Source: an uncultured Desulfomonile sp. (GTDB lineage Bacteria > Desulfobacterota > Desulfomonilia > Desulfomonilales > Desulfomonilaceae). Taken from it: a stretch of 64,000 bases of DNA. The notes beneath the pieces are model-generated. The model had not been told where the DNA came from. It searched no databases and worked only from the letters and a program-made list of their open reading frames with translations. Below are positions 7,564 through 23,406 of the stretch, in pieces. The stretch is taken from positions 1-64,000 of the forward strand of contig CAJBEZ010000060.1 in the NCBI GenBank assembly GCA_903952205.1, given 5' to 3'. Each line of letters begins with the position of its first letter. Position 1 is the first letter of the stretch. The translations under genes were made by a program, and so were the position numbers.

Positions 7564-8667
7564 TCAGGTTAAAGGCGTCATCCAGGTCGGGAACCCGTTG
7601 TCCGCAAACGAAATGGATTTGTCCAGTATGATTCGGGCCATGCGTTCCGTGGTCGCAAAACTCGACAGGATCGATATCGCCGTCCCGGAAATCTGGCGCA
7701 TCACTATGCGGTCGGACTCAACCATTAATGGTCGGAAAACCAGCTCGATCATCGCCTGTGCCGGGTCAATCATCAGGATCTGATCGTCACCGATATTGGA
7801 ACTTATGATGTGCGGCAACGAACTCGGGATAACCCAGTTTCTGCTCTGTAGACCGACCGCCGCCTGGCCAAGTCCCCCGTTCGTAGGCTTGAACTCGGAA
7901 AGCGCAAGAAGCGTGTTGGCCATTTTCTCGTTGGTTACGAGAGTTCCCCAGTTCTGTGAAATTAGTCTCGATCTCACCCAGACATTAACGAAATCCGCAA
8001 AAGTTAAAGTCCCCGCAGTCGCCACACCAACGATAGGGCAGGTGTCAGAACCGTCATTCTGGTCACCTGACACCAGCGTGCTGATGGCGTCAGCGTGGAG
8101 CAACGCCCCAAGTTCAACCCCGACCCGCTGCAACCAGTGTCTCGCAATGGGCAGTTTCACCGACAGTATAAGCTCGTCAGTCCACTCAAGGGCCCGCGCT
8201 TTCTTGCTCACCCTCACGGTTTTGTATCCCCATGTGAACTTACTCGTCGGTATGGTTTCCGCTTCACCGATTGGCAATAATTTCGGGTTCTCGTAGTCGA
8301 TCCAGGGACTCGTCACGACCAGTGAATCAACATTCTCCGTGGCCGCCACAAGATCCTTGTAATTGACGTTCAGCTCCATCCCTCTCACGACAAACTGTCT
8401 TATGATTTCAGGAGCCAGATATTTGTAATCGTTGGACAGGCTTAAAAGGTTGTCCAGAGATATTCTCTCAGGATCAACCCCGATATCCGAAAACAGGTCC
8501 CTCAACGTTAGAAGGTCCCCGTTGGCTCTTGTCAGTTTCAACCTGGTCTGCATGAACTTTTCCAGGTCAATTTCCTTGCCCGCTACACCGTCTGAGCCGC
8601 GATAGGTCTTTAACGGTTCAATTACTTTTTCTTTAAAAGTAAATTGCAGTCCGAGTTCTCCCCCCAT
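7564..8667 (-). CDS. Major capsid protein (HK97 fold)
   Basis: This 367-residue protein is consistent with an HK97-fold capsid protein: an N-terminal arm, a spine helix region, and strand-rich P- and A-domain segments (TIPTSKFTWGYKTVRVSKKARALEWTDE..., LVTNEKMANTLLALSEF, ILMIDPAQAMIELVFRPL). It is encoded next to the decoration and protease/scaffold genes. A GGGGGG run (8654-8659 region) precedes the ATG by about 8 nt and a second G run directly follows it in the coding sequence. Confidence 0.85.
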   Translation of the reverse strand: MGGELGLQFTFKEKVIEPLKTYRGSDGVAGKEIDLEKFMQTRLKLTRANGDLLTLRDLFSDIGVDPERISLDNLLSLSNDYKYLAPEIIRQFVVRGMELNVNYKDLVAATENVDSLVVTSPWIDYENPKLLPIGEAETIPTSKFTWGYKTVRVSKKARALEWTDELILSVKLPIARHWLQRVGVELGALLHADAISTLVSGDQNDGSDTCPIVGVATAGTLTFADFVNVWVRSRLISQNWGTLVTNEKMANTLLALSEFKPTNGGLGQAAVGLQSRNWVIPSSLPHIISSNIGDDQILMIDPAQAMIELVFRPLMVESDRIVMRQISGTAISILSSFATTERMARIILDKSISFADNGFPTWMTPLT

Positions 8668-8702
8668 TTATTCATCCCCCCGTATTCAGTTTTTATAGTT
8701 GG

Positions 8703-9386
8703 TTAGAATTCCAGCGTTTCGATTGCGCTTCCGGCTGATGCCCCCTTGATCACAAGTCCCGCCACTGCGCTTGAGTCATGGGAACTCGACCCCCCAAGAG
8801 TGACACCTGCGGTCAGGCCAAGGACAGTATTCGCGGAATGAGTCTCATTCGTGATCTCAAGAGACTGATTCACGTTCAATGCGGTAAACACAGGTTTATT
8901 GTCCGCGTTCACCGACACCACAAACCCCACCGCAGTGGCGTTGATCTCAGCCGCAATTTGCACCGCAGTCCTGGCCGCCCCCGCTGTCAGTGTGAACGTC
9001 TGTTTCTCGTCTCCGCCAACCTTTAAACCGACTACATCGCTTGTAGCGGCCACAACTGCGAAAGTTTCTGCGTTCGCGGCTGTTACGCTTGCGCACGAAG
9101 CCCCGGAATAAGGGTAAGCCTTGTTTAATGGACCCCATACAAACGCTCCCGGTGTAAGGGTAACCCCGGCCAAACGATCATCCTTTCTTTCACGGAATCG
9201 GGTAGCGACCGTGCAGAAGGCTGCCCCTGGAATATGGGCGCAAACAGTTCCCACAACATCAACCGATCCTATCTCAGTGTTCTTAACAACCGCATTGTCC
9301 CCTGATATTTTGACCACATCCCCAACTTCTATGGTTGTCGGACAAGCGAACGAAACCGCAAGAATATCCTGGACTCCCTGATTCAT
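8703..9386 (-). CDS. Capsid decoration-type protein (DUF2190-like) carrying the repeat domain found in the sheath
   Basis: The N-terminal 100 residues (DVVKISGD, DVVGTVC, CTVATRFRERKDD, AGVTLTPGAFVWG) resemble DUF2190-like capsid decoration proteins, and the last 25 residues (AVAGLVIKGASAGSAIETLEF) complete that fold. Residues about 117-196 are an insertion of the same beta-rich domain that occurs twice in the tail sheath (TFTLTAGAARTAVQIAAEIN...NTVLGLTAG). The location next to the major capsid gene fits a capsid surface protein. Seven G (9394-9400) sit 7 nt upstream of the ATG. Confidence 0.7.
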   Translation of the reverse strand: MNQGVQDILAVSFACPTTIEVGDVVKISGDNAVVKNTEIGSVDVVGTVCAHIPGAAFCTVATRFRERKDDRLAGVTLTPGAFVWGPLNKAYPYSGASCASVTAANAETFAVVAATSDVVGLKVGGDEKQTFTLTAGAARTAVQIAAEINATAVGFVVSVNADNKPVFTALNVNQSLEITNETHSANTVLGLTAGVTLGGSSSHDSSAVAGLVIKGASAGSAIETLEF

Positions 9387-9955
9387 TATTTATCCCCCCC
9401 AAACATTCTTGAAACACTGTCAACAATGTCCCTGCTGACTTCCGCTACCGGTATGTCAACCTTGGGAATCTCTTCATCAGCGCTGCTTTTCATTGACCCA
9501 AACCTGTTGAGCGCCAACGATTTGTACTCTTCAAGCGCCTCCTGGATGTAGGCGATGTCCTGGGAATTGGCTATTCTCAGTCTGATTTTTTTGTCGTTCT
9601 CACTGAGTTCCTCTTTTGCCGGGTCAACCTTGGCAGCGTCAAATGCTTTCAACGCTTCCTTTTTCTGAAACTCAACAAAAGCCAGGCCATTCGCTGCGTT
9701 TGCGAGGTCTGTCGGTAAAACTTCCAAAATTTCATCAACGGATTTTCCCGAATACTTGCAACTGCCCGACAATTCGCATGCCCTTAAAACCCTGTCATAA
9801 AGGCCTGAATACGCCACCTGGGCTTTTTTAAGCTCTTCCACTTTTCCCAACAGAAGCTCTTCAAGTTTTTCAGGAATCGGCGCTCCGTCGGACAGGGCGA
9901 ACTCAATCCCCAATTCTTTACAGACCGCCGAAAACAGTTTTAATTCGTTTCCCAT
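9386..9955 (-). CDS. Nested scaffold protein (in-frame internal start)
   Basis: An internal ATG at 9953-9955 (MGNELKLFSAVCKELG) follows a run of six G within the protease gene and would yield a separate 189-residue acidic, helical scaffold. Nested protease/scaffold pairs are classical in lambda (C/Nu3) and Mu (I/Z). The internal start is inferred from the G-rich ribosome-binding site and the sharp change from protease to helical composition just before it. Confidence 0.5.
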   Translation of the reverse strand: MGNELKLFSAVCKELGIEFALSDGAPIPEKLEELLLGKVEELKKAQVAYSGLYDRVLRACELSGSCKYSGKSVDEILEVLPTDLANAANGLAFVEFQKKEALKAFDAAKVDPAKEELSENDKKIRLRIANSQDIAYIQEALEEYKSLALNRFGSMKSSADEEIPKVDIPVAEVSRDIVDSVSRMFGGDK

Positions 9956-10741
9956 AGTCCCCCCACTTTCATTACTAACTGGTTCCTTTCCGGAAATATT
10001 GTTGAGCGCAACACGGGGTCCCGCGTTGGAATCAGCGCCCATACCCCAAGGGACAAAAGCCATGTGTCTAACCGCCGTAATCTTTAGCGGAAGCCATCGA
10101 ACCATATCCCCGTTTATTCTTTTTCCTTGGTTTTTTACGAATTCCTGATGAAGCATATCAGGATGTGACGGAACGTATTCTCCGTCAATCCCTATCGACC
10201 CGGCCCTTAGAATTCCTTCTGTGAGCCCCAGCGCCGCCTTTGGGTCATATTTAGGGTTTACAACCAGAGTTCCGTTTATCCCGGCTTCTAATTTACCTTT
10301 TGCGGCTTCAAAAAAAGGATTCTCAACTTTCCCCGCAATATCCCTGGAATCAATTGAATGGTTCCATGTAATATCAGGTTTGAAAGCGCCAACCAGGGGC
10401 GCTATATCCCTAGCAATTACAGCGGCATTATCGTGACCAAAGTCTACGCACTGAGGATATGGAAAACTCGAACTCGGCCACAATTTGGCGCCACTGACCA
10501 GCCGCCACAAAACCCTGACTTTTCCGTCATCAGGAATGCCCGGTGGGGAAGGGCCGTTAGACAGGGAAAGAGCGACCTCATCCTCTGTGTCCCCCGATTT
10601 TTCCTGTATTCGCTGATTTAATTCTTCAGTAGACTCTCCCTGGTCATAAGCATTTTTCAGACCCTTGCAATCTACGATGCAGTCAAAGGTGTAAATCTTT
10701 TGACCTTTCCTGTTTAACCTGAACTTAAAAGCGTCTTTCAT
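9386..10741 (-). CDS. Prohead protease fused to scaffold domain
   Basis: The 451-residue protein has an N-terminal protease domain with a candidate His128 (TWNHSIDSRDIAG) and Ser182 (ILRAGSIGID), the His/Ser arrangement of HK97-type prohead proteases (U35-like) and Mu gpI-like proteins. The C-terminal part (residues 263-451) is acidic and helical, typical of an internal scaffold. Proteases of this type mature the procapsid and clear the scaffold. The gene lies between portal and decoration genes, as expected. It overlaps the decoration gene at a single base. Confidence 0.75.
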   Translation of the reverse strand: MKDAFKFRLNRKGQKIYTFDCIVDCKGLKNAYDQGESTEELNQRIQEKSGDTEDEVALSLSNGPSPPGIPDDGKVRVLWRLVSGAKLWPSSSFPYPQCVDFGHDNAAVIARDIAPLVGAFKPDITWNHSIDSRDIAGKVENPFFEAAKGKLEAGINGTLVVNPKYDPKAALGLTEGILRAGSIGIDGEYVPSHPDMLHQEFVKNQGKRINGDMVRWLPLKITAVRHMAFVPWGMGADSNAGPRVALNNISGKEPVSNESGGTMGNELKLFSAVCKELGIEFALSDGAPIPEKLEELLLGKVEELKKAQVAYSGLYDRVLRACELSGSCKYSGKSVDEILEVLPTDLANAANGLAFVEFQKKEALKAFDAAKVDPAKEELSENDKKIRLRIANSQDIAYIQEALEEYKSLALNRFGSMKSSADEEIPKVDIPVAEVSRDIVDSVSRMFGGDK

Positions 10742-10758
10742 TCCCCCCGTTATCCCCC

Positions 10759-12108
10759 TTAATGATTTGTCGGTACGTGCGAAAACATTTCATATCTCCT
10801 GGAATCAGAAACAAAAGACGCGATAAAAGCCCCGGAAGTGGCGTTACGCTGATCATGCCCCAACAGTTTTCTCGCTTCTTCTTTGGAAATTACTTCCTGA
10901 GTCAACTGCCCCAAAACTTTTTGTGAATCCATGTATCCGGCTTCCGCGTCCCTGAATGCGTCTATCGAACGACTGGTGGTAAATTTGACCGAAACCCCCA
11001 CATTGCCCAGACCGTTAAGAGCAAAATTCAGCCTGTGGCCATGTTCGATCACTCTTTTAACTCCAAGTTGAAACATTTTGATGCCTTGAGTCAGTTCTTC
11101 ATAAACTACCTTGGCAAAAGTCTCAGTTGAGTTAAAATTCCATCCAAACGCGATAGGATCTCTTTGAAGGGCCGAAAATAATCCCTGTAAAACAATTTGA
11201 AGAACGTCTTTTGCCCCCTGAGCCCCGGCGGTAATATTATTGAACTGGAATTCGATATTGTCGTAACTGACGCAGATCCCGTCATCCATTTCTTTTGTGA
11301 AGCTGTCCGCTACCTTGTTCAGATATTCCTGAGCCATAGCGTTATATTCTTCGTCTTCCTGGCCTGGCTTTCGTGGGGGTCTTTCAACTTTCGCGAGTAA
11401 AACCCCCAGCACTGAAAGTTTTTCAACCCAGGTCCGGATTTTTTTCATGATAGCCGCATGGTGAGCGCAAGGCTCAATTGCTGCGAGAGCGGGCGGAACA
11501 GGGTAGGGGCTGCCATCTCGAACTATCGACGCATGAAAGGACGTTTGAACAGGATTTAACGCGACCAGTTGATCCATTTGCTGTTGCATTAAAACCAGTT
11601 CCCTGTTTTGGTTCAGGCTCCAGCGAATGCTTTTGATCGGAACAAGGTAAGCCCTGTCAATATAAGAAAGGGTTGGATCAGGGACCCATTCGACACAACA
11701 CCCACCAGATCTGGCAACCTGGGAAAAAAGAGCGTTGATCAGGCCATCTAGCCCCCCGGATAAGGGAAAACATCTTGCCGCAAAATTATTGGCTATATCT
11801 ATCGCCTTGTCGGCCTCAGACTGACTTGACGCCATTATTTCAAGATTATGGCCTATGTTTCCAAGCGCTACCGTCGTGTAAACATACTTACTTACATACG
11901 GATCTAGCAGTGAAATATTGTCGAGCGCCTGATATGTTTCAAAAGGGAATTTTGCGGCTAAAACATTTAGATTGTTTAGATAGGCCCCAACCTGACTGGC
12001 CGACCATTCGTCGTCTATCTGCGACCTGCGGGAAGTCACTTTCGGATAATCCGATACCGGCTCTGTAGCTTTTCCCCGCCCTAAAAGTTGTTTTATTTTT
12101 TGAATCAT
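10759..12108 (-). CDS. Phage portal protein
   Basis: This 449-residue protein lies between large terminase and protease, and has portal-type features: a helical stem region, a loop with GGLDGLINALFSQVARSGGCCVEWVPDP, and later FSALQRDPIAFGWNFNSTETFAKVVYEELTQGI. Portals form the dodecameric ring through which DNA is packaged and ejected. Its ATG overlaps the terminase stop (ATAATGA), indicating coupled translation. Length is typical for the family. Confidence 0.8.
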   Translation of the reverse strand: MIQKIKQLLGRGKATEPVSDYPKVTSRRSQIDDEWSASQVGAYLNNLNVLAAKFPFETYQALDNISLLDPYVSKYVYTTVALGNIGHNLEIMASSQSEADKAIDIANNFAARCFPLSGGLDGLINALFSQVARSGGCCVEWVPDPTLSYIDRAYLVPIKSIRWSLNQNRELVLMQQQMDQLVALNPVQTSFHASIVRDGSPYPVPPALAAIEPCAHHAAIMKKIRTWVEKLSVLGVLLAKVERPPRKPGQEDEEYNAMAQEYLNKVADSFTKEMDDGICVSYDNIEFQFNNITAGAQGAKDVLQIVLQGLFSALQRDPIAFGWNFNSTETFAKVVYEELTQGIKMFQLGVKRVIEHGHRLNFALNGLGNVGVSVKFTTSRSIDAFRDAEAGYMDSQKVLGQLTQEVISKEEARKLLGHDQRNATSGAFIASFVSDSRRYEMFSHVPTNH

Positions 12109-13742
12109 TATGCTGTAGCAAATTTCCTGAAGACGGGCATAACCATTGGGGCGGCTCCTTTTCGCCCAAGTTCATAAGCTGCGATAAGACAGGAATTCAT
12201 GGCCATCGCAAAATGGTTCTCAATTCCTTGCCCCCCGATAAAAACCCGTCGCATCACGCCGGAGTTTGTCATTTCCTCTTTGGCGATTAATTGTTTACAG
12301 TGATAGCGAACACGTTCAAGCGCAGTCAGGCTTGTCCCTCTGCACTCTTTCCTGCCGGGCAGCATCACAACGCCCTGTTCCATTCGGTCAATCATGGAAT
12401 CAAGGCTTGATGTTCGATCAACATTTACAACCGGAATTTCAATATTGCCGGAAAGTAACTCTGTTCCAAGTTTTAGTTGTCTGCCCTGAAAATATTGAAT
12501 TGATGCTTGTCGTGGAAAACGCGCACAGAATTGCTTTGCGGGCCACTTGTTCGGCATGGCGTCAACAACTGCGTAAGATACGCCAAACTGAACCATTAAT
12601 TCATCTAGTCTGTTCCAGTTATCAGTTTCTTCAAAATGGACCCATTTGAAAAACTTTCCTGAAATAATCCCTACTGAGATATGAAGTTGGTCGCCTTGGT
12701 CCACGCCCATATACGACCCGGTTTCCCGATAGGAAAACCCGTGATCACCTTCAACAAAATCCAGAAGCTTTTCGTCTACTCTGGCGTTACCACCCCCATA
12801 CGGGAACCCTAAAACCGAAACGGTGAAGCGTGCTATTTTATTGTGGCCGACCTTGTAATCTTCCCATTCCTTCATGATTTTGGTTGCTATGTTTGGAAAA
12901 TTAGGCGGCTTTATTTGCGTGTATAACTGGCTTAAATGGCGTCCTCGTTTGTCTTGTCTTTCAGGGCGTAACGCGACCCATTCTCCCTGGCTCATGTTTA
13001 ATTTTGATTCACATTGCTTGCAGCCCCGGTAATGGGTCACGCCTTCTGGAAAAGTTTTTTTCCTGTTTTGAGGAACAGCAAGGAAGTTGGAAGGAAAATC
13101 AAGTTCTAGGCAGTTATATGCTCCGCACGACGGACAAATCAGTTTCCAGTAACGCTGATCGGTTTCCTTGAATTGCTTGTCAATGCCATATCCCGGAAAA
13201 CTCGGTTGACTGAGCGACGCGAACCATTGAAGGTCTGAGTGCATCATTCTGTCAACGGCGTAATCAATAAGAGCTTCTTTACACTCGTCGGTTTCGTCAG
13301 TTACAACCATATCGCAGTCAATGGATTTAACTTGCGATAAAGTAAAAAGGCCTCGGAAGTAGAGGGCTCCGGGGCCAATCTGTTTCAAAGAAACGTTGTT
13401 CGTGCTTCGGACACGAGACGCCAGGTAAGGGGTTTCATCAAGCATTGTCTGGCATCTGTCATTTGAAAAATCCGAAACCTGTTTATCATTCTGAAAATAG
13501 TAAACGGCTTTTTTCCCAAGGTGTTCGGAGATATAAAGGGTCTTGAGCAACATGGTGGTTGACATGGCGACTTGTGCGCCCTTCATGAAAACCTGCCAGG
13601 GGTGATCATCGTCGATTATGTCGTTAAGATATTCGTGTCCCTTTGTGGTGTATTTGGCCCCACGTAAAACAACCCCAACCTTGGATATCCATTCCCTTAA
13701 AGACATTCGCTTGAATCTCTTTAAAAAAGTGGATGTCGGCAA
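12108..13742 (-). CDS. Terminase large subunit (GpA-like)
   Basis: The 544-residue packaging motor has an N-terminal ATPase with a Walker A-like loop of the degenerate GpA type (MKGAQVAMSTTML) and a Walker B (SIDCDMVVTDETDE), then a C-terminal nuclease with acidic residues in GVDQGD and AVVDAMPNKWP. Two CxxC pairs (CPSCGAYNC and CKQCE) could hold zinc, as in GpA relatives. Translation starts at TTG (13740-13742) behind AGGGGG. The protein cuts and translocates phage DNA with the small subunit encoded just upstream. Confidence 0.85.
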   Translation of the reverse strand: MPTSTFLKRFKRMSLREWISKVGVVLRGAKYTTKGHEYLNDIIDDDHPWQVFMKGAQVAMSTTMLLKTLYISEHLGKKAVYYFQNDKQVSDFSNDRCQTMLDETPYLASRVRSTNNVSLKQIGPGALYFRGLFTLSQVKSIDCDMVVTDETDECKEALIDYAVDRMMHSDLQWFASLSQPSFPGYGIDKQFKETDQRYWKLICPSCGAYNCLELDFPSNFLAVPQNRKKTFPEGVTHYRGCKQCESKLNMSQGEWVALRPERQDKRGRHLSQLYTQIKPPNFPNIATKIMKEWEDYKVGHNKIARFTVSVLGFPYGGGNARVDEKLLDFVEGDHGFSYRETGSYMGVDQGDQLHISVGIISGKFFKWVHFEETDNWNRLDELMVQFGVSYAVVDAMPNKWPAKQFCARFPRQASIQYFQGRQLKLGTELLSGNIEIPVVNVDRTSSLDSMIDRMEQGVVMLPGRKECRGTSLTALERVRYHCKQLIAKEEMTNSGVMRRVFIGGQGIENHFAMAMNSCLIAAYELGRKGAAPMVMPVFRKFATA

Positions 13743-15027: not shown

Positions 15028-15729
15028 TCAAGTCGCCACCTTGACGCGGCGTTTGTCAAAGACCGTGATCAAGGGAATCGAAAGCCTCGTGCATATGGTG
15101 TCCAGTACCCTGTGCCATTTTGCGCCTCTTGAATCCTTGTTTTCAGTCATTGGTGAATCATAAACCACGGTTGTTACTTCTTTGTGGCGTCTGACGTAAT
15201 CTCCTAACTTCTCAACGATGTCTCCTCTGAACAGGTACATTCGATATTGGACGTTCTTGTCCCCGAGGAATTGTGAAAGTTCCGGGATGTCTACGGACCC
15301 GAGCAGTCCGGTATGGTCTAAATCCTTGTTAACAAGACTGACCTCATCGGATTCCGTGACTAGGATGTCCATCATAGCCCCGACCCTCTTGCATAAGTTT
15401 GCGGTATAATTAATAGCGTGTAGGTTGGGATTAGAGTTGTCTATCACAAGAGCGACTATGTGTGGCTTGGGCTCTGGATGAAGAATTTCATTGGCGGAGC
15501 TAAATTCACCAGCTTCCGCAAATGCCGCAGCGCTCATGCTTCTCTCAAACGCGTCCACGCTAGATTCTTCGTAACTAAGAATTCCCGAATCTTTATCATG
15601 ATTGAGCAGACCATTTTCTACAGGTCCAACTGCCGGATCCATAAAGCTTAATGCTGTCTCAGCCTCGTCCATCTCCGCAAACGTGATCGCGTTGAGCATG
15701 GCCGTGATCTTTTCTTTAACCTTTTTCAT
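15028..15729 (-). CDS. Universal-stress-like protein with N-terminal AFAE motifs
   Basis: The C-terminal two thirds of this 233-residue protein resemble the nucleotide-binding alpha/beta fold of UspA-type proteins (HIVALVIDNSNPNLHAINYTANLCKRVGAMMDILV ... TTVVYDSPMTEN ... LSIPLITVFDKR), though the ATP-binding Gly motif is not evident. The N-terminus carries two copies of a short motif (ITFAEMDEAETAL and AAFAEAGEFSSANEIL) also present in the 59-residue protein at 20778-20957. AGGAG precedes the ATG. A -24/-12 promoter lies 28-44 bp upstream. Likely role: a stress protein controlled by the neighbouring two-component system (inference). Confidence 0.6.
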   Translation of the reverse strand: MKKVKEKITAMLNAITFAEMDEAETALSFMDPAVGPVENGLLNHDKDSGILSYEESSVDAFERSMSAAAFAEAGEFSSANEILHPEPKPHIVALVIDNSNPNLHAINYTANLCKRVGAMMDILVTESDEVSLVNKDLDHTGLLGSVDIPELSQFLGDKNVQYRMYLFRGDIVEKLGDYVRRHKEVTTVVYDSPMTENKDSRGAKWHRVLDTICTRLSIPLITVFDKRRVKVAT

Positions 15730-15756: not shown

Positions 15757-15773
15757 TACAAATCTCGTGCCAA
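15757..15773 (-). promoter_or_regulatory. Sigma-54 -24/-12 promoter of the USP-like gene
   Basis: TTGGCACGAGATTTGTA matches TTGGCACG-N4-TTGCW with the correct 12-bp GG-to-GC spacing, with GT in place of GC at -12. Predicted start about 17 nt before the ATG. Confidence 0.7.
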
Positions 15774-15931: not shown

Positions 15932-15948
15932 TGTTGCATTCAGCAATA
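15932..15948. promoter_or_regulatory. Upstream activator palindrome TGTTGC-N5-GCAATA
   Basis: This palindrome lies about 160 bp upstream of the -24 element of the USP-like gene, a normal distance for a sigma-54 activator site. A half site (TGTTGC) lies beside it at 15912. The same motif recurs twice at 21097 and 21185. Confidence 0.65.
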
Positions 15949-16131: not shown

Positions 16132-17589
16132 ATGTCATGGAGCCTCATTAGCTTAAGGTACAAAGTTTTAATCGGAGTAGCCGGCATCTATTTATTTATG
16201 ATAGCCACAATCTTTGGAAGCTACTATTTCATGACATCTCTGGAAAGCAAGATCAGTTATCTGGAAGAAATCAGCAAGGTAGAAGAGGCTGCGCTGGAAA
16301 TAAGAAGATTCGAAAAAAACTATTTCCTTTACGGTGACAGGCAGTCGTTGGGGACGGCCTTCTATCATTTGAACCGAGTTCAGTCTCTTTACGAAAAGAA
16401 CCTCTCCAAGATTGAAGAACTGATATCGCCCGAACAGTCAAGAGAATTTCGGGAATCGTTAACGGACTACGGGCGGTTGTTGAAAGAGTGTTCAAGTCTG
16501 GCCGGTGAGGGAAAGTGTTTCGAAACTCCCGAGACGAGAGCTGAATATGAAAAACAAATCAGGAAATCAGGATCTTCTATTTTAGAGATCGCAGAGAATC
16601 TGGCCAAACAAAAAAGGGCGTCAATAAGAGAGACCATAAGCGCCAACATGAAGCTGCTGCTGCTAGGGCTAACTGTAGCAGGTGTTGGGTTTGTGGCGAT
16701 TGCGAGTTTCTTGTTGGGAAGGGTCAACCGGTCTCTAAGACAACTTGAAAAAAGTGCAGAAAGCTTTGCCAAGGGAGAGTTCGAGCCTATTGATAATCTT
16801 CCCCCCGAGAAAGAAATCAGGGAAATATTTACATCCTTCAATAACATGGCGTCAAGATTGAGAGAACGTGAGGAACAACTTGTTCAATCCAAGAAGCTGG
16901 CCTCCTTGGGGACCATGCTTGCGGGAGTTGCGCACGAGATAAACAATCCATTGTCCAACATTTCATCTTCCTGTGAAATACTTCTGGAGGAAATTGACGA
17001 AACAGACACCGAATTTAAAAAAAACCTGTTGCGCAAAGTTCTGGATCAAGTTGAAAAAGCAAGAACCATTGTGCTTAACTTGTTGGAATTTTCCCGGAAT
17101 AAGGAATTTGCTCTCGAGAATCTAAACTTGGCCATGTTGATCGAGAAAACACTGAGTCTCATCCAGAGCCAGAAACCCCCTGGCGTTCAAGTAATCTCTA
17201 ACGTGAATCCCAATCTTTTCATTCTTGCTGATAAGCAGCGAATCGAACAAGCTCTCATGAATCTTATAACAAATGCTTTTCACGCTATAGAAGAAGAAGG
17301 ACAGGTTCGAATTCGAGGCTTTTCGTCCAACGATGGAAAGGTCAGAATAAGGATACGTGACACAGGGAGTGGCATATCCAAAGAAAATCTGGCGCGAATC
17401 TTTGACCCGTTTTTTACCACCAAGGACGTGGGTAAGGGCACAGGATTGGGTCTCTTCATTACTCACGACATAATACTCAGACATAAAGGAACGATTCGAG
17501 TTGAGAGTCTAAAGGGCCAGGGAACGGTGTTCTCTATATCTCTTCCTTCTGTGGAGCCTAAAGAATGCATACGCCCCCACGAATCCTGA
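16132..17589 (+). CDS. Membrane sensor histidine kinase
   Basis: The 485-residue protein has two membrane segments (about residues 12-32 and 178-200) enclosing a helical periplasmic sensor of about 140 residues, then a HAMP-like linker, a HisKA domain with phospho-acceptor His268 ([11 protein letters not shown]), and an HATPase domain with N box ([11 protein letters not shown]), G1 (DTGSGIS), F (FDPFFTT) and G2 (GTGLGLF). It is translationally coupled to the NtrC-type regulator: the next gene starts within its last 25 nt. It is expected to phosphorylate that regulator. A receiver on the Lon-type protein 3.8 kb away may be a second target (inference). Confidence 0.9.
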
Positions 17590-18926
17590 TAATAGACGAC
17601 GAAGAATTGGCGCTTTCAAACCTTGAGCATATCCTTAGAAAACAGGGCTATGATGTAGCGACAGCAGGTTCTGGACCGAAAGGAATGAATGCGATAAGAG
17701 CTGGAAGTTTCGATGTGGTACTGACGGATCTGAGGATGGAGAAGGTCGACGGTATGGCCATCCTGGAGGAATGCAAGAAGAAGCATCCTTCTACCGAAGT
17801 GATTATGATCACGGGATATGCGACTGTGGACTCCGCCATTGAGGCTATGAAAAGAGGAGCGTATCATTATGTTTCCAAACCGTACCGCATTGACGCCGTT
17901 AGAAAGATAGTCACCGAAGCTCTTGAGAAAATCGAACTTCGCGAGGAAAACCTCCATCTCAAAAATGAACTCAAGAAATTCTACGAAGTAGGCCAGGTCA
18001 AAATCATTACCAAGGACCCTGCTATGTTGAGAATACTTGAGACCGCCCGCCAGATTGGGCCCACTGATTGTAATGTTCTTATAACTGGTGAATCAGGAAC
18101 TGGAAAAGAACTGCTGGCTCGTTATGTTCATGAGCACAGCGCACGGAGTTCCTCATGCATGATGGCTGTTAATTGCGGGACATTCAACGAGGAATTACTC
18201 ACGAACGAGCTTTTTGGCCATGAGAAGGGCGCTTTTACGGGAGCGCACATCAGCAAGCCCGGCATAATTGAATTAGCCAACGGCGGCACTCTTTTCCTGG
18301 ACGAAATAACAGAAATGTCCGTGAATATGCAGGCCAAACTTCTACGAGTAATCCAGGAAAAGCAGTTGATGAGAGTAGGAGGAACTTCGACAATCAATGT
18401 GAATGTGCGTTTTATAGCGGCCACCAACAGAAACATTCAAACCTCTGTTGGTTCAAATGAATTCAGAAAGGATCTGTATTATAGACTCAACGTGATCTCG
18501 TTGGATCTTCCGCCCCTGGCCTCACGTAAAAATGATATTCCATTACTGGCTCAATTCTTTCTTGAAAAGCACTCGAAACTCATGCGACGCGATCTTCCTG
18601 TTATTTCGAAGGAGGTTCTGGAAATATTAACTAATTACGATTTCCCAGGAAATGTCAGGGAATTGGAGAACATCATCGAGCGCGGTATAGCTTTGTCTAC
18701 GGAGGGTCTTATTGAGGACAGGCATCTTCCCGATGATCTGCGGGATTTTCAGATTACCACTTACAGGCGAAAGGATGGTAGTCTTCCCACGCTGGAAGAA
18801 CAGGAAATCAGATACATCAAGCAAGTTCTGGCCGAAAGCGGCGGGAATAAGACTCTGGCGGCGGAGACTCTCGGAATCGACAGGGTTTCCCTATGGCGTA
18901 AGATCAAAAGATTTAATCTGGAGTAA
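17565..18926 (+). CDS. NtrC-family sigma-54-dependent response regulator
   Basis: This 453-residue protein contains a receiver (phospho-Asp55 in VVLTDLRM, Thr in MITGYAT, Lys in YVSKPY), a central AAA+ domain (Walker A GESGTGKE, GAFTGA sigma-54 contact loop, Walker B GTLFLDEI) and a C-terminal Fis-type helix-turn-helix (NKTLAAETLGIDRVSLWRKIKRF). It overlaps the kinase gene. It is the best candidate to bind the TGTTGC-N5-GCAAYA palindromes upstream of the two sigma-54 promoters of this island. Its receiver resembles the one inside the Lon-type protein (ATVDSA, KPY). Confidence 0.93.
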   Translation: MHTPPRILIIDDEELALSNLEHILRKQGYDVATAGSGPKGMNAIRAGSFDVVLTDLRMEKVDGMAILEECKKKHPSTEVIMITGYATVDSAIEAMKRGAYHYVSKPYRIDAVRKIVTEALEKIELREENLHLKNELKKFYEVGQVKIITKDPAMLRILETARQIGPTDCNVLITGESGTGKELLARYVHEHSARSSSCMMAVNCGTFNEELLTNELFGHEKGAFTGAHISKPGIIELANGGTLFLDEITEMSVNMQAKLLRVIQEKQLMRVGGTSTINVNVRFIAATNRNIQTSVGSNEFRKDLYYRLNVISLDLPPLASRKNDIPLLAQFFLEKHSKLMRRDLPVISKEVLEILTNYDFPGNVRELENIIERGIALSTEGLIEDRHLPDDLRDFQITTYRRKDGSLPTLEEQEIRYIKQVLAESGGNKTLAAETLGIDRVSLWRKIKRFNLE

Positions 18927-18960: not shown

Positions 18961-19231
18961 TCAAGACCTTACAACAAGGACAGGGCATGAGGCGTTCCCG
19001 ATCACTCTTTCCGCTACGCTACCCATCAACAGCCGTTTCATTCCGGTTCGTCCATGAGAACCAATTATTATTATTCCCGAATTTTTCTGTTTTGCGGTTA
19101 AAATTTTGGTGAGGCGCCACCGAAATCACTTTGATGGCGCCTTTTTCCACCTTTGCCAAAGACAACGCCTGACGCAGGGCATTGAAACCTGAGTCAGAGC
19201 CGTCAACGGCCACAAGGATCGTTCTATACAT
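18961..19231 (-). pseudogene. UspA-family universal stress protein, internally deleted and frameshifted
   Basis: The N-terminus (MYRTILVAVDGSDSGFNALR...IKVISVAP) is intact for about 41 residues. The conserved C-terminus (SGIIIIGSHGRTGMKRLLMG ... VIGNASCPVLVV, stop at 18961-18963) is in another frame. About 50-60 residues of the middle of a typical 140-residue UspA are missing. The junction lies near 19100-19120, where AGGCGCCA/TGGCGCCT (19111-19143) forms an inverted repeat. The gene overlaps the end of the TauE gene by 8 bp, so it was part of that operon. Sequencing error alone would not explain the missing segment. Confidence 0.75.
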
Positions 19232-20297
19232 TTTCGCAAGTCTCCGACACCTGACGATTGACTATTTCCGCACGTTTTGCCTTGATCATACTGCCCAGTA
19301 TTATAACTGCGCCGATTGCAAGAGCAAGGCACATTAACGCGAAGCTCACCATATTCATGAAGCTTAACGCTGACTGATTCGCCGAAATCAAATCCAACTG
19401 CGCCAGATATTGAGGAACGGCAAGCGCTCTACTGAAAGCAACTATGATCATAATAGAACCCATAACTATCTTGATCATGTTTTCCTTGACGTAAGTTGTG
19501 CCGATGGCGCCTAATTGAACTCCCAAAAGTGAACCCGCCAGAATTATGAGCGTAAGCCTGATGTCTACCATGCCCGCCATTGCCCATTTGACCGTTCCGC
19601 CGAGTCCCATGAGAAAAGCTATCACCAGTTCTGACGCAGAAGATATAAGGCCGGAAGCGCCTATAACGTATATCATGCCCGGAACCCCGACAAATCCACC
19701 CACAGCGATGGTTGCAGCGAGCAATCCCGTCAGTAAGCCAACCGGTATAGTGAACCAAAGCGATATAGTGAGATTGGCCGTTTTAAAGTGAATCATGGGC
19801 GGAAGATTAATTGATTGAAGGCGTCGGGCCAATTTTGGAACAGGGTCAGCGTCGGTAACTTTGGCCGATTTCCACGCGTCATAGAAAACGTAGCTGCCGA
19901 CGGTTATGAGCACAAAGACAAACGACAGGCTCACATATAGGTTAGACCCGGCCTCACCCCATTTTCCCAGTATCCATTCCTGAATCTTGATACCGATTTG
20001 CACTCCTACTGTTGCGGACGCTGCCATCACAATCCCAAGTTTAAGGTCGACCTGACCGTACCTAAACCTCTTGTAGGCTCCCACCATGGCTTTGGGGAAT
20101 TTGTGACACATGTTGCTGGCCACTGCTACAGCGGCAGGCACTCCAAGACTCATCATTCCTGGCGTCAGCACAAAAGCCCCTCCTGAACCAATGAATCCGC
20201 TGACCAAGCCTCCGATGAAGCCCACTATGAACAAAAAAGACACATTCATCCACGTAAGGTCTATAAATTTTGCAGCCTCCAAGGCATGTTCCGTCAT
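19224..20297 (-). CDS. TauE/SafE family sulfite/anion exporter
   Basis: The 357-residue membrane protein has about 8-9 hydrophobic segments and the duplicated glycine-rich motif of the TauE/SafE family (GLVSGFIGSGGAFVLTPGMM and GLLAATIAVGGFVGVPGMIY). These permeases move sulfite, sulfonates or related organic anions across the inner membrane. In a sulfur-cycling anaerobe it may export sulfite or a similar anion (inference). It follows two small genes and precedes the broken uspA, all on the minus strand behind a shared sigma-54 promoter. Confidence 0.85.
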   Translation of the reverse strand: MTEHALEAAKFIDLTWMNVSFLFIVGFIGGLVSGFIGSGGAFVLTPGMMSLGVPAAVAVASNMCHKFPKAMVGAYKRFRYGQVDLKLGIVMAASATVGVQIGIKIQEWILGKWGEAGSNLYVSLSFVFVLITVGSYVFYDAWKSAKVTDADPVPKLARRLQSINLPPMIHFKTANLTISLWFTIPVGLLTGLLAATIAVGGFVGVPGMIYVIGASGLISSASELVIAFLMGLGGTVKWAMAGMVDIRLTLIILAGSLLGVQLGAIGTTYVKENMIKIVMGSIMIIVAFSRALAVPQYLAQLDLISANQSALSFMNMVSFALMCLALAIGAVIILGSMIKAKRAEIVNRQVSETCENV

Positions 20298-20336: not shown

Positions 20337-20654
20337 CTAGGCGCTCATTCTCAGGCGAGCGCGAGGTCTTTGAGCGGGACGTGGAACGGACTCTGCCGGA
20401 CGCGGAGCTGTCTTCTTGGTTGTAGCCTCGATCCCAAGAGCCGACCACAAGTTGCTGGCGAATGCCCCGTGAGCAAAAGAAAAAGCAAAAACCGTGGCAA
20501 TTGGCAAAGCGGCGTAAATACCGCCAAGACTGAAAAGCGAGGTTATTGCGTCGGTGTGGCTGAAAACAGCGACTAACATCGCAGCGGACACTGCGCCATA
20601 CATAACAGTCCTCAAAATGGCTTTTGGCTTATTAATTTCGGTAGTTACCGACAT
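20337..20654 (-). CDS. Small membrane protein with basic C-terminal tail
   Basis: The start chosen is the ATG at 20654 because AAAGGAG lies 8 nt upstream; an upstream in-frame ATG lacks a ribosome-binding site. The 105-residue protein has two hydrophobic segments (VMYGAVSAAMLVAVF and GIYAALPIATVFAFSFAHGAFASNLWSALG) and a proline/arginine-rich C-terminus. It lies 40 bp upstream of the TauE gene and is likely an accessory of that exporter (inference). No known family recognised. Confidence 0.6.
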   Translation of the reverse strand: MSVTTEINKPKAILRTVMYGAVSAAMLVAVFSHTDAITSLFSLGGIYAALPIATVFAFSFAHGAFASNLWSALGIEATTKKTAPRPAESVPRPAQRPRARLRMSA

Positions 20655-20777: not shown

Positions 20778-20957
20778 TCAAACGTGGTACGATCTTTCCC
20801 TCAATCGGGTTTTGGATTGGCTTTTTCTTTCAACATCCCTTGCTGTTGACCTCTTATCTGATTCCTCCATGATGCCTCGGGCAGTCTGCCATTCGCCCAT
20901 CTCTGCGAATGCTGTGGCTGCGGCCATTCTCTGCAGTTTCTCAAACCATGTTCTCAT
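20778..20957 (-). CDS. Small AFAE-motif protein (59 aa)
   Basis: The gene starts at ATG 20957, with GGAGGAAAT 4 nt upstream. An earlier in-frame ATG at 20999 lies upstream of the predicted sigma-54 transcription start and is unlikely. The protein (MRTWFEKLQRMAAATAFAEMG...) contains the motif TAFAEMGEWQTARGIMEE, like the two motifs in the USP-like protein at 15028-15729, followed by a basic tail. It heads the TauE operon. Function unknown. Confidence 0.6.
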   Translation of the reverse strand: MRTWFEKLQRMAAATAFAEMGEWQTARGIMEESDKRSTARDVERKSQSKTRLRERSYHV

Positions 20958-21004: not shown

Positions 21005-21021
21005 ATCAACTTCCGTGCCAA
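21005..21021 (-). promoter_or_regulatory. Sigma-54 -24/-12 promoter of the AFAE/TauE operon
   Basis: TTGGCACGGAAGTTGAT matches the -24/-12 consensus with correct spacing; the -12 GC is GA. It predicts a leader of about 37 nt before the ATG at 20957. Confidence 0.68.
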
Positions 21022-21096: not shown

Positions 21097-21113
21097 TGTT
21101 GCGTTTAGCAACT
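21097..21113. promoter_or_regulatory. Upstream activator palindrome TGTTGC-N5-GCAACT
   Basis: GTTGC-GTTTA-GCAAC is a perfect inverted repeat 76 bp upstream of the -24 element of the AFAE/TauE operon. A half site TGTTGC lies at 21067. Confidence 0.65.
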
Positions 21114-21184: not shown

Positions 21185-21201
21185 TGTTGCATTGTGCAAT
21201 A
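21185..21201. promoter_or_regulatory. Upstream activator palindrome TGTTGC-N5-GCAATA
   Basis: This copy lies 164 bp upstream of the -24 element and about 160 bp before the Lon-type gene, so it could serve both. A GCAACA half site follows at 21215. Confidence 0.65.
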
Positions 21202-21360
21202 TAGATGGTTTTTAGCAACAGGTTAAAATCCCGCCCATGCTTCATTTTTTTTATCGGGTCCGGCCGCGCGCATTTTCAATCTAGAGTCGTTGCCGATTGT
21301 GACCAATAAGTCTATAATGAGGGCGTGAAGTGACATTTTGGCGATAGGGGGTTGCTAAGT

Positions 21361-23406
21361 ATGGGGTTCTTTAAAAAGAGTCAGGAAGAGCGGCCTTCAA
21401 TTCCCCAGGAATTGCTGGATCTGAGGTCTACTATAGATTCGGCTGCCCTCCCTGAACACGTTGAATCAGTAGCGGCAAAAGAACTGGACAGGCTCGAAAA
21501 GACAGATCCATCAGCGGCCGAGTATTCTATTGGATTGAATTACATTGACTACCTTCTTGCGCTGCCGTGGAACAGATATACCGATGATAACCTTGATCTG
21601 GGGAGGGCGCAAACGATTTTGGAGCGTCAGCATTATGGGCTTCAACACGCAAAGGAACGTGTTCTGGAATTCCTTGCGGTCAGGACTCTAAGAAACCAGA
21701 GAGGATTCAAAATCCTGGTGGTTGACGATGAAGAGGTGGCAAGAGAAAATATCCAACGCGTAATTCTTAAAGAAGGCCATTCAGTGCAGACGGCCAATAA
21801 CGGTGTGGAGGCCCTGGAGAAGGTTAAGATTCAGGAGTTTGACCTTATCATTAGTGATTTGCGAATGGATCAGATGAATGGATTGGAACTTCTGGAAGCC
21901 ATGAAAAAGACTGCCACACGAACAGAAATCATGCTCGTCACAGGCCATGCGACGGTTGATTCAGCTGTAGACGCTTTCACAAAAGGGGCGGCGTATTACC
22001 TCACAAAACCCTACAAATTGGATGACTTGAGAGCAGCGGTCAGAAAAATACTCGAGAAGAAACAACATGCTCAAATAACACGTGGCCCTATCTTGTGTTT
22101 CTCAGGCCCTCCCGGCACTGGAAAGACTTCAATCGGCCAGGCCATAGCGGAGGCCATGGAAAGAAAGTTCGCCAGGATATCCATGGCGGGATTAAGAGAC
22201 GAAGCTGAATTGCGGGGACACCGGAGGACTTACGTCGGGGCAATGCCTGGACGTATAATTGGTGAGATGAGAAATTTGGGATTAAAAAATCCTGTTTTTA
22301 TGCTCGACGAGATTGATAAGATCGGACAGGATTTCCGTGGAGATCCTGCTTCGGCGCTTCTAGAAATTTTGGACCCCGAGCAGAATAGAAATTTCAGAGA
22401 TCATTACCTTGATGTGCCGTTTGATCTTTCGTCAGTAATGTTCATTGCCACAGCGAACGTGGTGGAAAATTTACCGGCTGCGCTTTTGGACCGACTGGAG
22501 GTGATCACATTTTCAGGTTATACGGAGCACGAGAAAATGCGAATCGCTCAGAACTTCTTGATACCGAGACAACTCGATGACTCAGGGATTGCGGGACACG
22601 GGACTCAGTTCACCGATGAAGCTGTGTCCCTGATCATCAGGGATTATACCCGGGAAGCCGGACTGCGCAATCTCGAACGAGAGATAGCGAATGTGTGCCG
22701 GAAATTGGCGCTGATATCTCTCCAGCAAGGCGAAGATCGTCTACTTTCTACAGTTGACGCTCCAATGATTCCAAAGTTTCTTGGACCAAGACGTTACCGG
22801 CACGAAGCCGCAGAGGCGGCTAATCAGGTTGGTGTGACAACAGGTCTGGTGTGGACGGAATTTGGCGGAGAAATAATCTTTGTAGAAGCTGCCCGGATGA
22901 AAGGGACTCAACAGTTGATACTTACCGGTTCCCTGGGAGATATCCTGAGGGAATCCGCTCAGACTGCCCTAAGTTATGTCCGTAGTAATGCAGAGATTTT
23001 CAATATTGATCCTGATTTCTTTGCAGAAATTGATATCCATATTCACATTCCAGCGGGGGCGATACCCAAAGACGGGCCTTCAGCCGGAGTGACCATTGCT
23101 CTTGCTCTCATCTCTCTTCTAACGTCTCGCCCAGCCAGAAGGAACGTAGCTCTAAGCGGCGAAATAACCTTGAGCGGCAGGATACTTCCCGTGAGCGGCA
23201 TCAGGGAGAAGAGTCTTGCAGCCCAAAGAGCCGGAGTCAATACGGTTGTATTCCCGCTATCCAATAGCGTGGACATTGAAAGCCTGCCGGATCAAGTGAG
23301 AAACGGACTGGAATTTGTTGTTGCCGGTGACATCACGAGTATTGTCGACCTCGTACTGGACTCCGTCAAAAAACCAATGACTGGCCCTGGTTCCTTAATC
23401 AAATGA
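21361..23406 (+). CDS. Lon-type ATP-dependent protease with an inserted response-regulator receiver domain
   Basis: The 681-residue protein (start at ATG 21361, behind AGGGGG) lacks Lon's N-terminal substrate-binding domain and begins in the helical region ([17 protein letters not shown] ... [20 protein letters not shown]). Residues about 116-238 are a full receiver: acidic pocket D122-D123, phospho-Asp166 (IISDLRM), Thr in LVTGHAT and Lys in LTKPY. Lon resumes exactly at [16 protein letters not shown] (Walker A 249-256), then Walker B ([11 protein letters not shown]) and a protease domain with Ser574 (KDGPSAG) and Lys617 (IREKS), the normal 43-residue spacing. All key residues are present, so a phosphorylation-controlled protease is likely (inference). 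It has its own upstream region and lies 3.8 kb from the kinase gene. Confidence 0.93.

Follow-up and report, generated by a model that had tools for sequence, protein, structure and literature searches.

Analysis of the window, the whole 64,000-nucleotide stretch of DNA from an uncultured Desulfomonile sp., showed an open reading frame of 681 residues (21361–23406, + strand) that is predicted to be a protease of the LonA type; it lacks the N-terminal LON domain and has a complete phospho-receiver domain built into its chain (hereafter REC-Lon). REC-Lon probably provides the proteolysis in a three-component system, in which a kinase shared with a partner regulator would phosphorylate the receiver and in this way switch the degradation of dedicated substrates. 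The fusion itself is not new, as it was already known from one sulfate-reducing bacterium. New here are the match of the receiver's docking helix to that of the partner regulator, the conserved TTGC-N5-GCAA, sigma54 and sigma70 sites beside REC-Lon, and an undescribed protein of approximately 59 residues (the FAE protein) whose gene starts the divergent operon. If a receiver directly controlled an AAA+ protease within one chain, two-component signalling would have an unusual output, through which a signal could quickly remove proteins as well as start transcription.

Architecture, conservation and spread of REC-Lon

Translated from its ATG, the open reading frame matched the NCBIfam model of endopeptidase La (TIGR00763) with 724 bits at a cut-off of 608. 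Pfam assigned Response_reg (residues 118–228, E 3e-29), AAA (245–385), Lon_lid (409–457) and Lon_C (465–666, E 2e-79). The first-pass annotation had described a Lon without the usual N-terminal substrate domain; in agreement with this, Pfam gave no match to the LON substrate-binding domain, and the alignment to LonA of B. subtilis (3m6a) began at residue 17. Residues 17–111 corresponded to chain positions 9–103 and residues 240–670 to positions 106–534, so that the 128 extra residues of REC-Lon fall into a two-residue joint of 3m6a and the receiver sits precisely at the junction of helical domain and AAA beta1. This split alignment, together with the Pfam matches, bore out the insertion point originally proposed for a complete receiver.

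The following parts were delimited, all on the + strand. The helical part kept from LonA (residues 15–113, 21403–21699), based on the 3m6a alignment and the structural model, ends in a long helix (95–113). In the receiver domain (residues 117–228, 21709–22044; Pfam and conservation), the codon of the phospho-acceptor D166 occupies 21856–21858, and alpha5 was predicted from secondary structure to continue into the linker (residues 220–240, 22018–22080) up to three residues before AAA beta1. The AAA+ module with lid (residues 241–457, 22081–22731) was assigned from Pfam and the conserved Walker A/B motifs and R378, and the Lon protease domain with its S574/K617 dyad (residues 465–666, 22753–23358) from Pfam and conservation. 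The receiver fold, acidic pair, phospho-aspartate, threonine/serine and lysine were all present, as were the LonA-type features, namely an AAA+ module with Walker A/B and arginine finger and a C-terminal S16 domain with a Ser-Lys dyad. REC-Lon thus shares the helical, AAA+, lid and protease domains and the dyad with LonA-type proteases (TIGR00763; B. subtilis 3m6a, M. taiwanensis 4ypl), but differs from them in lacking the N-terminal LON domain, in carrying a receiver before AAA beta1 and in forming a separate clade.

A TTG located 9 bases upstream of the ATG is a possible alternative start. The ATG-based N-terminus was common to the relatives, with Met1 invariant and Phe4 nearly so in an alignment of 40 sequences (REC-Lon of the window and 39 relatives), in which the start codons of the relatives were picked partly by expected position. 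The AlphaFold2 model of the monomer, built on these 40 sequences, had a mean pLDDT of 84 and a pTM of 0.76, and Foldseek placed LonA structures at the top of its matches (3m6a, TM 0.89 over the target). Helix 95–113 runs into the receiver in the model, and receiver alpha5 forms a single helix (220–240) leading into AAA beta1 at residue 244; in the model, the receiver is thus rigidly joined to the helical domain on one side and to AAA beta1 on the other. Such a long, stiff connection of receiver and ATPase favours mechanical coupling, as far as a monomer model, which does not extend to the response of the hexamer, can indicate. Linker lengths were fixed: the segment before the receiver (residues 105–119) was 15 residues long in 40 of 40 sequences and the one after it (residues 224–246) 23 residues long in 39 of 40.

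Across approximately 55 relatives, the receiver residues D122, D123, D166, T194 and K216 were invariant or nearly invariant, and so were K255/T256 (Walker A), D316/E317 (Walker B), R378, S574 and K617. The same result was obtained for the 40 sequences, a set that overlaps partly with the former; S574/K617 were invariant in the REC-Lon alignments and the AAA+ pore loop was mostly conserved. The residue numbers of the first-pass annotation (D122/D123, D166, T194 as the threonine, K216 as the lysine, Ser574/Lys617) were right, and its observation that Walker A/B and the dyad are kept held across the relatives. As judged from these alignments, a Lon ATPase/protease that is intact in its other parts has retained a complete, phosphorylatable receiver for a very long period.

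A junction query of 245 residues, whose threshold was not reached by the three ordinary Lon proteins of the genome, detected the REC-Lon architecture (one match per genome) in 12 of the 18 family genomes, in 51 of the 395 genomes sampled from the phylum and in 25 of the 198 from Nitrospirota. No relatives were found in the viral contigs searched. The closest aligned relative belonged to a Desulfomonile MAG, and the others to Desulfovibrionaceae, Desulfomicrobium, Desulfobacter, Syntrophobacteraceae and Nitrospirota. In a tree calculated by a quick, unrooted method and without the receiver columns, 49 REC-Lon sequences were set apart from 23 ordinary LonA on one branch (SH-aLRT 98), a result consistent with a single fusion. 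Besides REC-Lon, the genome (4.8 Mb, 120 contigs) encodes three more Lon proteins in open frames of 817–857 codons, 49–56% identical to REC-Lon over about 425 residues. Distant Lon-like proteins with 39–40% identity and open frames of approximately 1150 codons were also observed (G013:C43:13989-15260 and G010:C1:4942970-4944181).

The same junctions recurred in many independent genomes of two phyla, ruling out a chance junction or an assembly artefact, the latter of which had initially been named as a possible refutation. Considering also the conserved receiver active site and the three full-length LonA present besides REC-Lon, it is hardly credible that the insertion is an artefact or the receiver a functionless addition to an ordinary Lon.

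Kinase, partner regulator and docking helix

A membrane histidine kinase (16132–17589, + strand; HAMP, HisKA and HATPase_c by Pfam), the probable phosphodonor, is encoded in the window together with an NtrC-type sigma54 response regulator (17565–18926, + strand; Pfam), whose receiver was the genome's best match to that of REC-Lon. Of 45 REC-Lon loci, each at least 15 kb long, 35 contained such a kinase/regulator pair, compared with none of 20 arbitrarily chosen stretches of 20 kb, which came from part of these genomes; for TauE the corresponding counts were 27 of 45 and 0 of 20. The pair was absent within the stretch read in the other 10 loci, and its order and orientation around REC-Lon varied among relatives. 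That gene order changed but the company was kept argues for a functional linkage. A search for REC-plus-Lon architectures and their neighbours, proposed as a check in the first-pass annotation, led to a family in two phyla, with such company in most of the loci read.

Helix alpha1 of receivers is the docking surface for histidine kinases in two-component specificity. In the REC-Lon receiver, alpha1 was 55% identical to that of the same-locus partner regulator vs. 30% to the receivers of other regulators. This was the largest such difference in the receiver domain, with segments outside alpha1 reaching at most about 11 points. The alpha1 excess was larger than that of the rest of the receiver in 27 of 28 non-redundant loci (p 2e-7, a value that assumes independent loci, an assumption only partly true of related genomes). 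The other regulators in this comparison had been chosen for their resemblance to the REC-Lon receiver, so that the contrast should be conservative. The shared docking helix points to one kinase for both receivers, and on these sequence grounds a single kinase probably serves REC-Lon and the partner regulator. Direct copying of the REC-Lon receiver from the partner regulator is not claimed: the receiver tree (120 columns) was poorly resolved, and the claim is therefore limited to the shared docking helix and does not extend to descent.

A shared docking helix would also permit competition, and REC-Lon could act as a phosphate sink or feedback element that competes for the phosphoryl groups of the kinase and tunes the regulator, the protease being constitutive. 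This is very unlikely, since a lone receiver would suffice and the protease would be needless, the Lon catalytic residues are strictly conserved, and the lon mutant of Desulfovibrio vulgaris resembles the kinase and regulator mutants instead of being their opposite (PMC10102598).

Regulatory sites, the divergent operon and FAE proteins

The divergent operon starts with a small conserved gene (20778–20957, − strand) for the FAE protein. On the same strand lie MP119 (20337–20654, ATG start), a small putative membrane protein (by eye) that had no Pfam match and is conserved beside TauE, and a TauE/SafE-family transporter (19224–20297; PF01925, E 6e-35). The remnant of a UspA-like gene (18963–19231, − strand) consists of N- and C-terminal pieces in different frames, the middle of the protein missing through either a real deletion or an assembly collapse; several relatives (L047, L098, L059 and others) have an apparently intact UspA-like gene of about 280–290 aa that overlaps the TauE end. 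Another UspA-like protein (15028–15729, − strand), recognised as such by eye and without a Pfam match, contains two FAE modules (15634–15729 and 15463–15558; E 4e-6 and 7e-7). Phage head genes for major head protein, maturation protease, portal and large terminase (7564–13742, − strand) probably indicate a prophage beside the REC-Lon locus.

Four intergenic elements were conserved in the REC-Lon family: a sigma54 promoter-like site facing the divergent operon (TGGCACGGAAGTTGAT, 21005–21020, − strand, one mismatch), two palindromes TTGC-N5-GCAA (21099–21111 and 21187–21199, spaced 88 bp) and a sigma70-type promoter-like site facing REC-Lon (TTGCCG-17-TATAAT, 21290–21318, + strand), the last conserved in most of the family. 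The palindrome, identified by motif search and conservation, is the predicted, probable site of the NtrC-type regulator. A third copy (15934–15946) lies upstream of another sigma54 promoter-like site (TGGCACGAGATTTGTA, 15757–15772, − strand, one mismatch), itself 28 bp before the gene of the UspA-like protein with FAE modules.

The density of TTGC-N5-GCAA was 1.57 per kb in divergent intergenic regions vs. 0.024 per kb elsewhere in the loci (approximately 64-fold), and copies in relatives were often paired, 86–89 bp apart. As the palindrome was first found in the window locus, relatives of other genera constitute an independent test. The sigma54 pattern alone was not enriched over chance across the whole window, so that the two sites are assigned from position and conservation. 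A search with the −12 element restricted to TTGC overlooked the majority of loci, as TTGAT is the prevalent version in the family. A TGGC...TTGC string was rejected as a sigma54 promoter for REC-Lon, having the wrong spacing and lying too near the ATG; the conserved sigma70-type site fits better. From this arrangement of sites, the transporter and stress genes are probably under the control of the NtrC-type regulator, and REC-Lon seems to be made independently of it, with control after translation. Genome-wide, the palindrome pattern had 29 matches, and outside the window locus only L198 (G000:C64:111483) was near a good sigma54-like site: a GTTGC-N5-GCAA located 73 bp from the near-perfect TGGCACGCCCGTTGCT. 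L198 is, from its sequence, a possible further target of the regulator.

The FAE protein, which matched no Pfam family, has the consensus M..W.EKLE.MAAAVAFAE.GE...AR..L.E..., followed by a basic tail. Of 395 genomes searched with a profile, 52 had the protein or its core module, comprising 29 of the 51 REC-Lon genomes vs. 23 of 344 others; the corresponding p of 2e-16 overstates the case, since the profile was built from REC-Lon loci and the genomes are related. The 25 genomes with the strongest matches all carry REC-Lon. The module was also found fused to UspA-like proteins. The FAE protein is a possible candidate for a substrate, degradation tag or adaptor of a Lon without N-domain. A more far-reaching proposal, which we regard as doubtful, is that FAE proteins and module-bearing UspA-like proteins are the substrates or adaptors of a self-contained, phosphorylation-switched REC-Lon. 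One kinase signal would then both induce all of them (via sigma54) and control their destruction (via REC-Lon).

The receiver might instead be a built-in adaptor replacing the lost N-domain, which recruits substrates depending on phosphorylation, much like RssB and CpdR for ClpXP, and leaves the basal activity of the ring unchanged; FAE proteins would be candidate substrates or tags. We give this a minor share of credence. In its favour are the absent LON domain and the common starting point of the relatives, the FAE protein encoded divergently beside REC-Lon and the module repeated in a UspA-like protein at the same locus, and the co-occurrence of module and REC-Lon, which is complete among the strongest matches. 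However, those matches are partly a product of a profile built from REC-Lon loci, the module occurs without REC-Lon in 23 genomes, and the fixed linkers and continuous helix into the ATPase core resemble mechanical coupling more than a mobile adaptor.

Proposed mechanism and comparison with known systems

In the favoured mechanism, with REC-Lon as a proteolytic arm, the membrane histidine kinase would phosphorylate two receivers, that of the NtrC-type regulator and, at D166, that of REC-Lon. The phosphorylated regulator would bind the paired TTGC-N5-GCAA sites and switch on the sigma54 promoters of the small-protein, MP119, TauE and UspA genes, and REC-Lon would be made from its own sigma70-type promoter. 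Given the stiff insertion of the receiver, phosphorylation would most likely alter the ATPase ring (its assembly or ATP-driven translocation), and the altered ring would switch the degradation of a few dedicated substrates. Intact receiver and Lon were kept together, the linkers are fixed and the kinase is probably shared, so that a protease controlled by phosphorylation best accounts for the findings. The suggestion of the first-pass annotation that proteolysis is switched by phosphorylation was strengthened to this extent; its part concerning a change in activity is conjectural. The receiver may instead choose substrates, taking the place of the lost N-domain. Architecture, intact active sites, conservation, neighbourhood and conserved regulatory sites are evident in the sequences themselves; that phosphorylation gates proteolysis, as well as the direction and the substrates, we infer.

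The receivers RssB and CpdR confer phosphorylation-dependent control on the AAA+ protease ClpXP; they are separate proteins, whereas the receiver of REC-Lon lies within the protease chain. In Xanthomonas citri, it is reportedly an ordinary Lon that is modified, not a receiver domain. A phosphorylation switch of Lon has been described for this species (PMC5784255).

A 2011 study of D. vulgaris Hildenborough presented DVU3303 as a Lon-containing regulator that forms a three-component system with the kinase DVU3304 and the sigma54 regulator DVU3305, and already proposed phosphorylation-dependent proteolysis for it (Rajeev et al., PMC3333781). The first-pass annotation had been unsure whether the fusion had been described; fusion and idea had thus both been published, and genetic support followed in 2023 from a transposon study, in which DVU3303, DVU3304 and DVU3305 were all detrimental in chlorate, every pair having a cofitness above 0.9, and the anion transporter DVU3299 was named as a target (PMC10102598). 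This cofitness may partly reflect polarity because lon, kinase and regulator appear in one operon; unless it does, the likeness of the mutants speaks against the idea that REC-Lon merely degrades its partner regulator. The targets of DVU3305 comprise its own operon and neighbouring genes (PMC3333781), and the same targets were listed for it in a 2015 sigma54 study (PMC4641369). In the literature searched, which lay outside subscription journals, REC-Lon work was found only on D. vulgaris, and no assay of phosphotransfer, ATPase or protease activity was found for any REC-Lon. With a conserved kinase pairing, linkers of fixed length, intact active sites and a candidate partner protein, the 2011 proposal can be tested directly in D. 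vulgaris, which is genetically tractable.

The DVU3303 system, by its published description, resembles the window in combining receiver and Lon in one protein and in the linked histidine kinase and NtrC-type sigma54 regulator. The targets of DVU3305 include adjacent membrane, hypothetical and UspA-domain genes, among them a putative anion transporter; in the window, TauE and UspA-like genes are accompanied by sigma54-like sites and conserved palindromes, the latter being a motif derived here, independently of the published D. vulgaris motif. The window differs in that kinase and regulator stand together, with REC-Lon apart behind a sigma70-like promoter. In the Desulfovibrionaceae loci L110 and L112, TauE and MP119 in reverse orientation are followed by REC-Lon, kinase and NtrC-type regulator in forward orientation.
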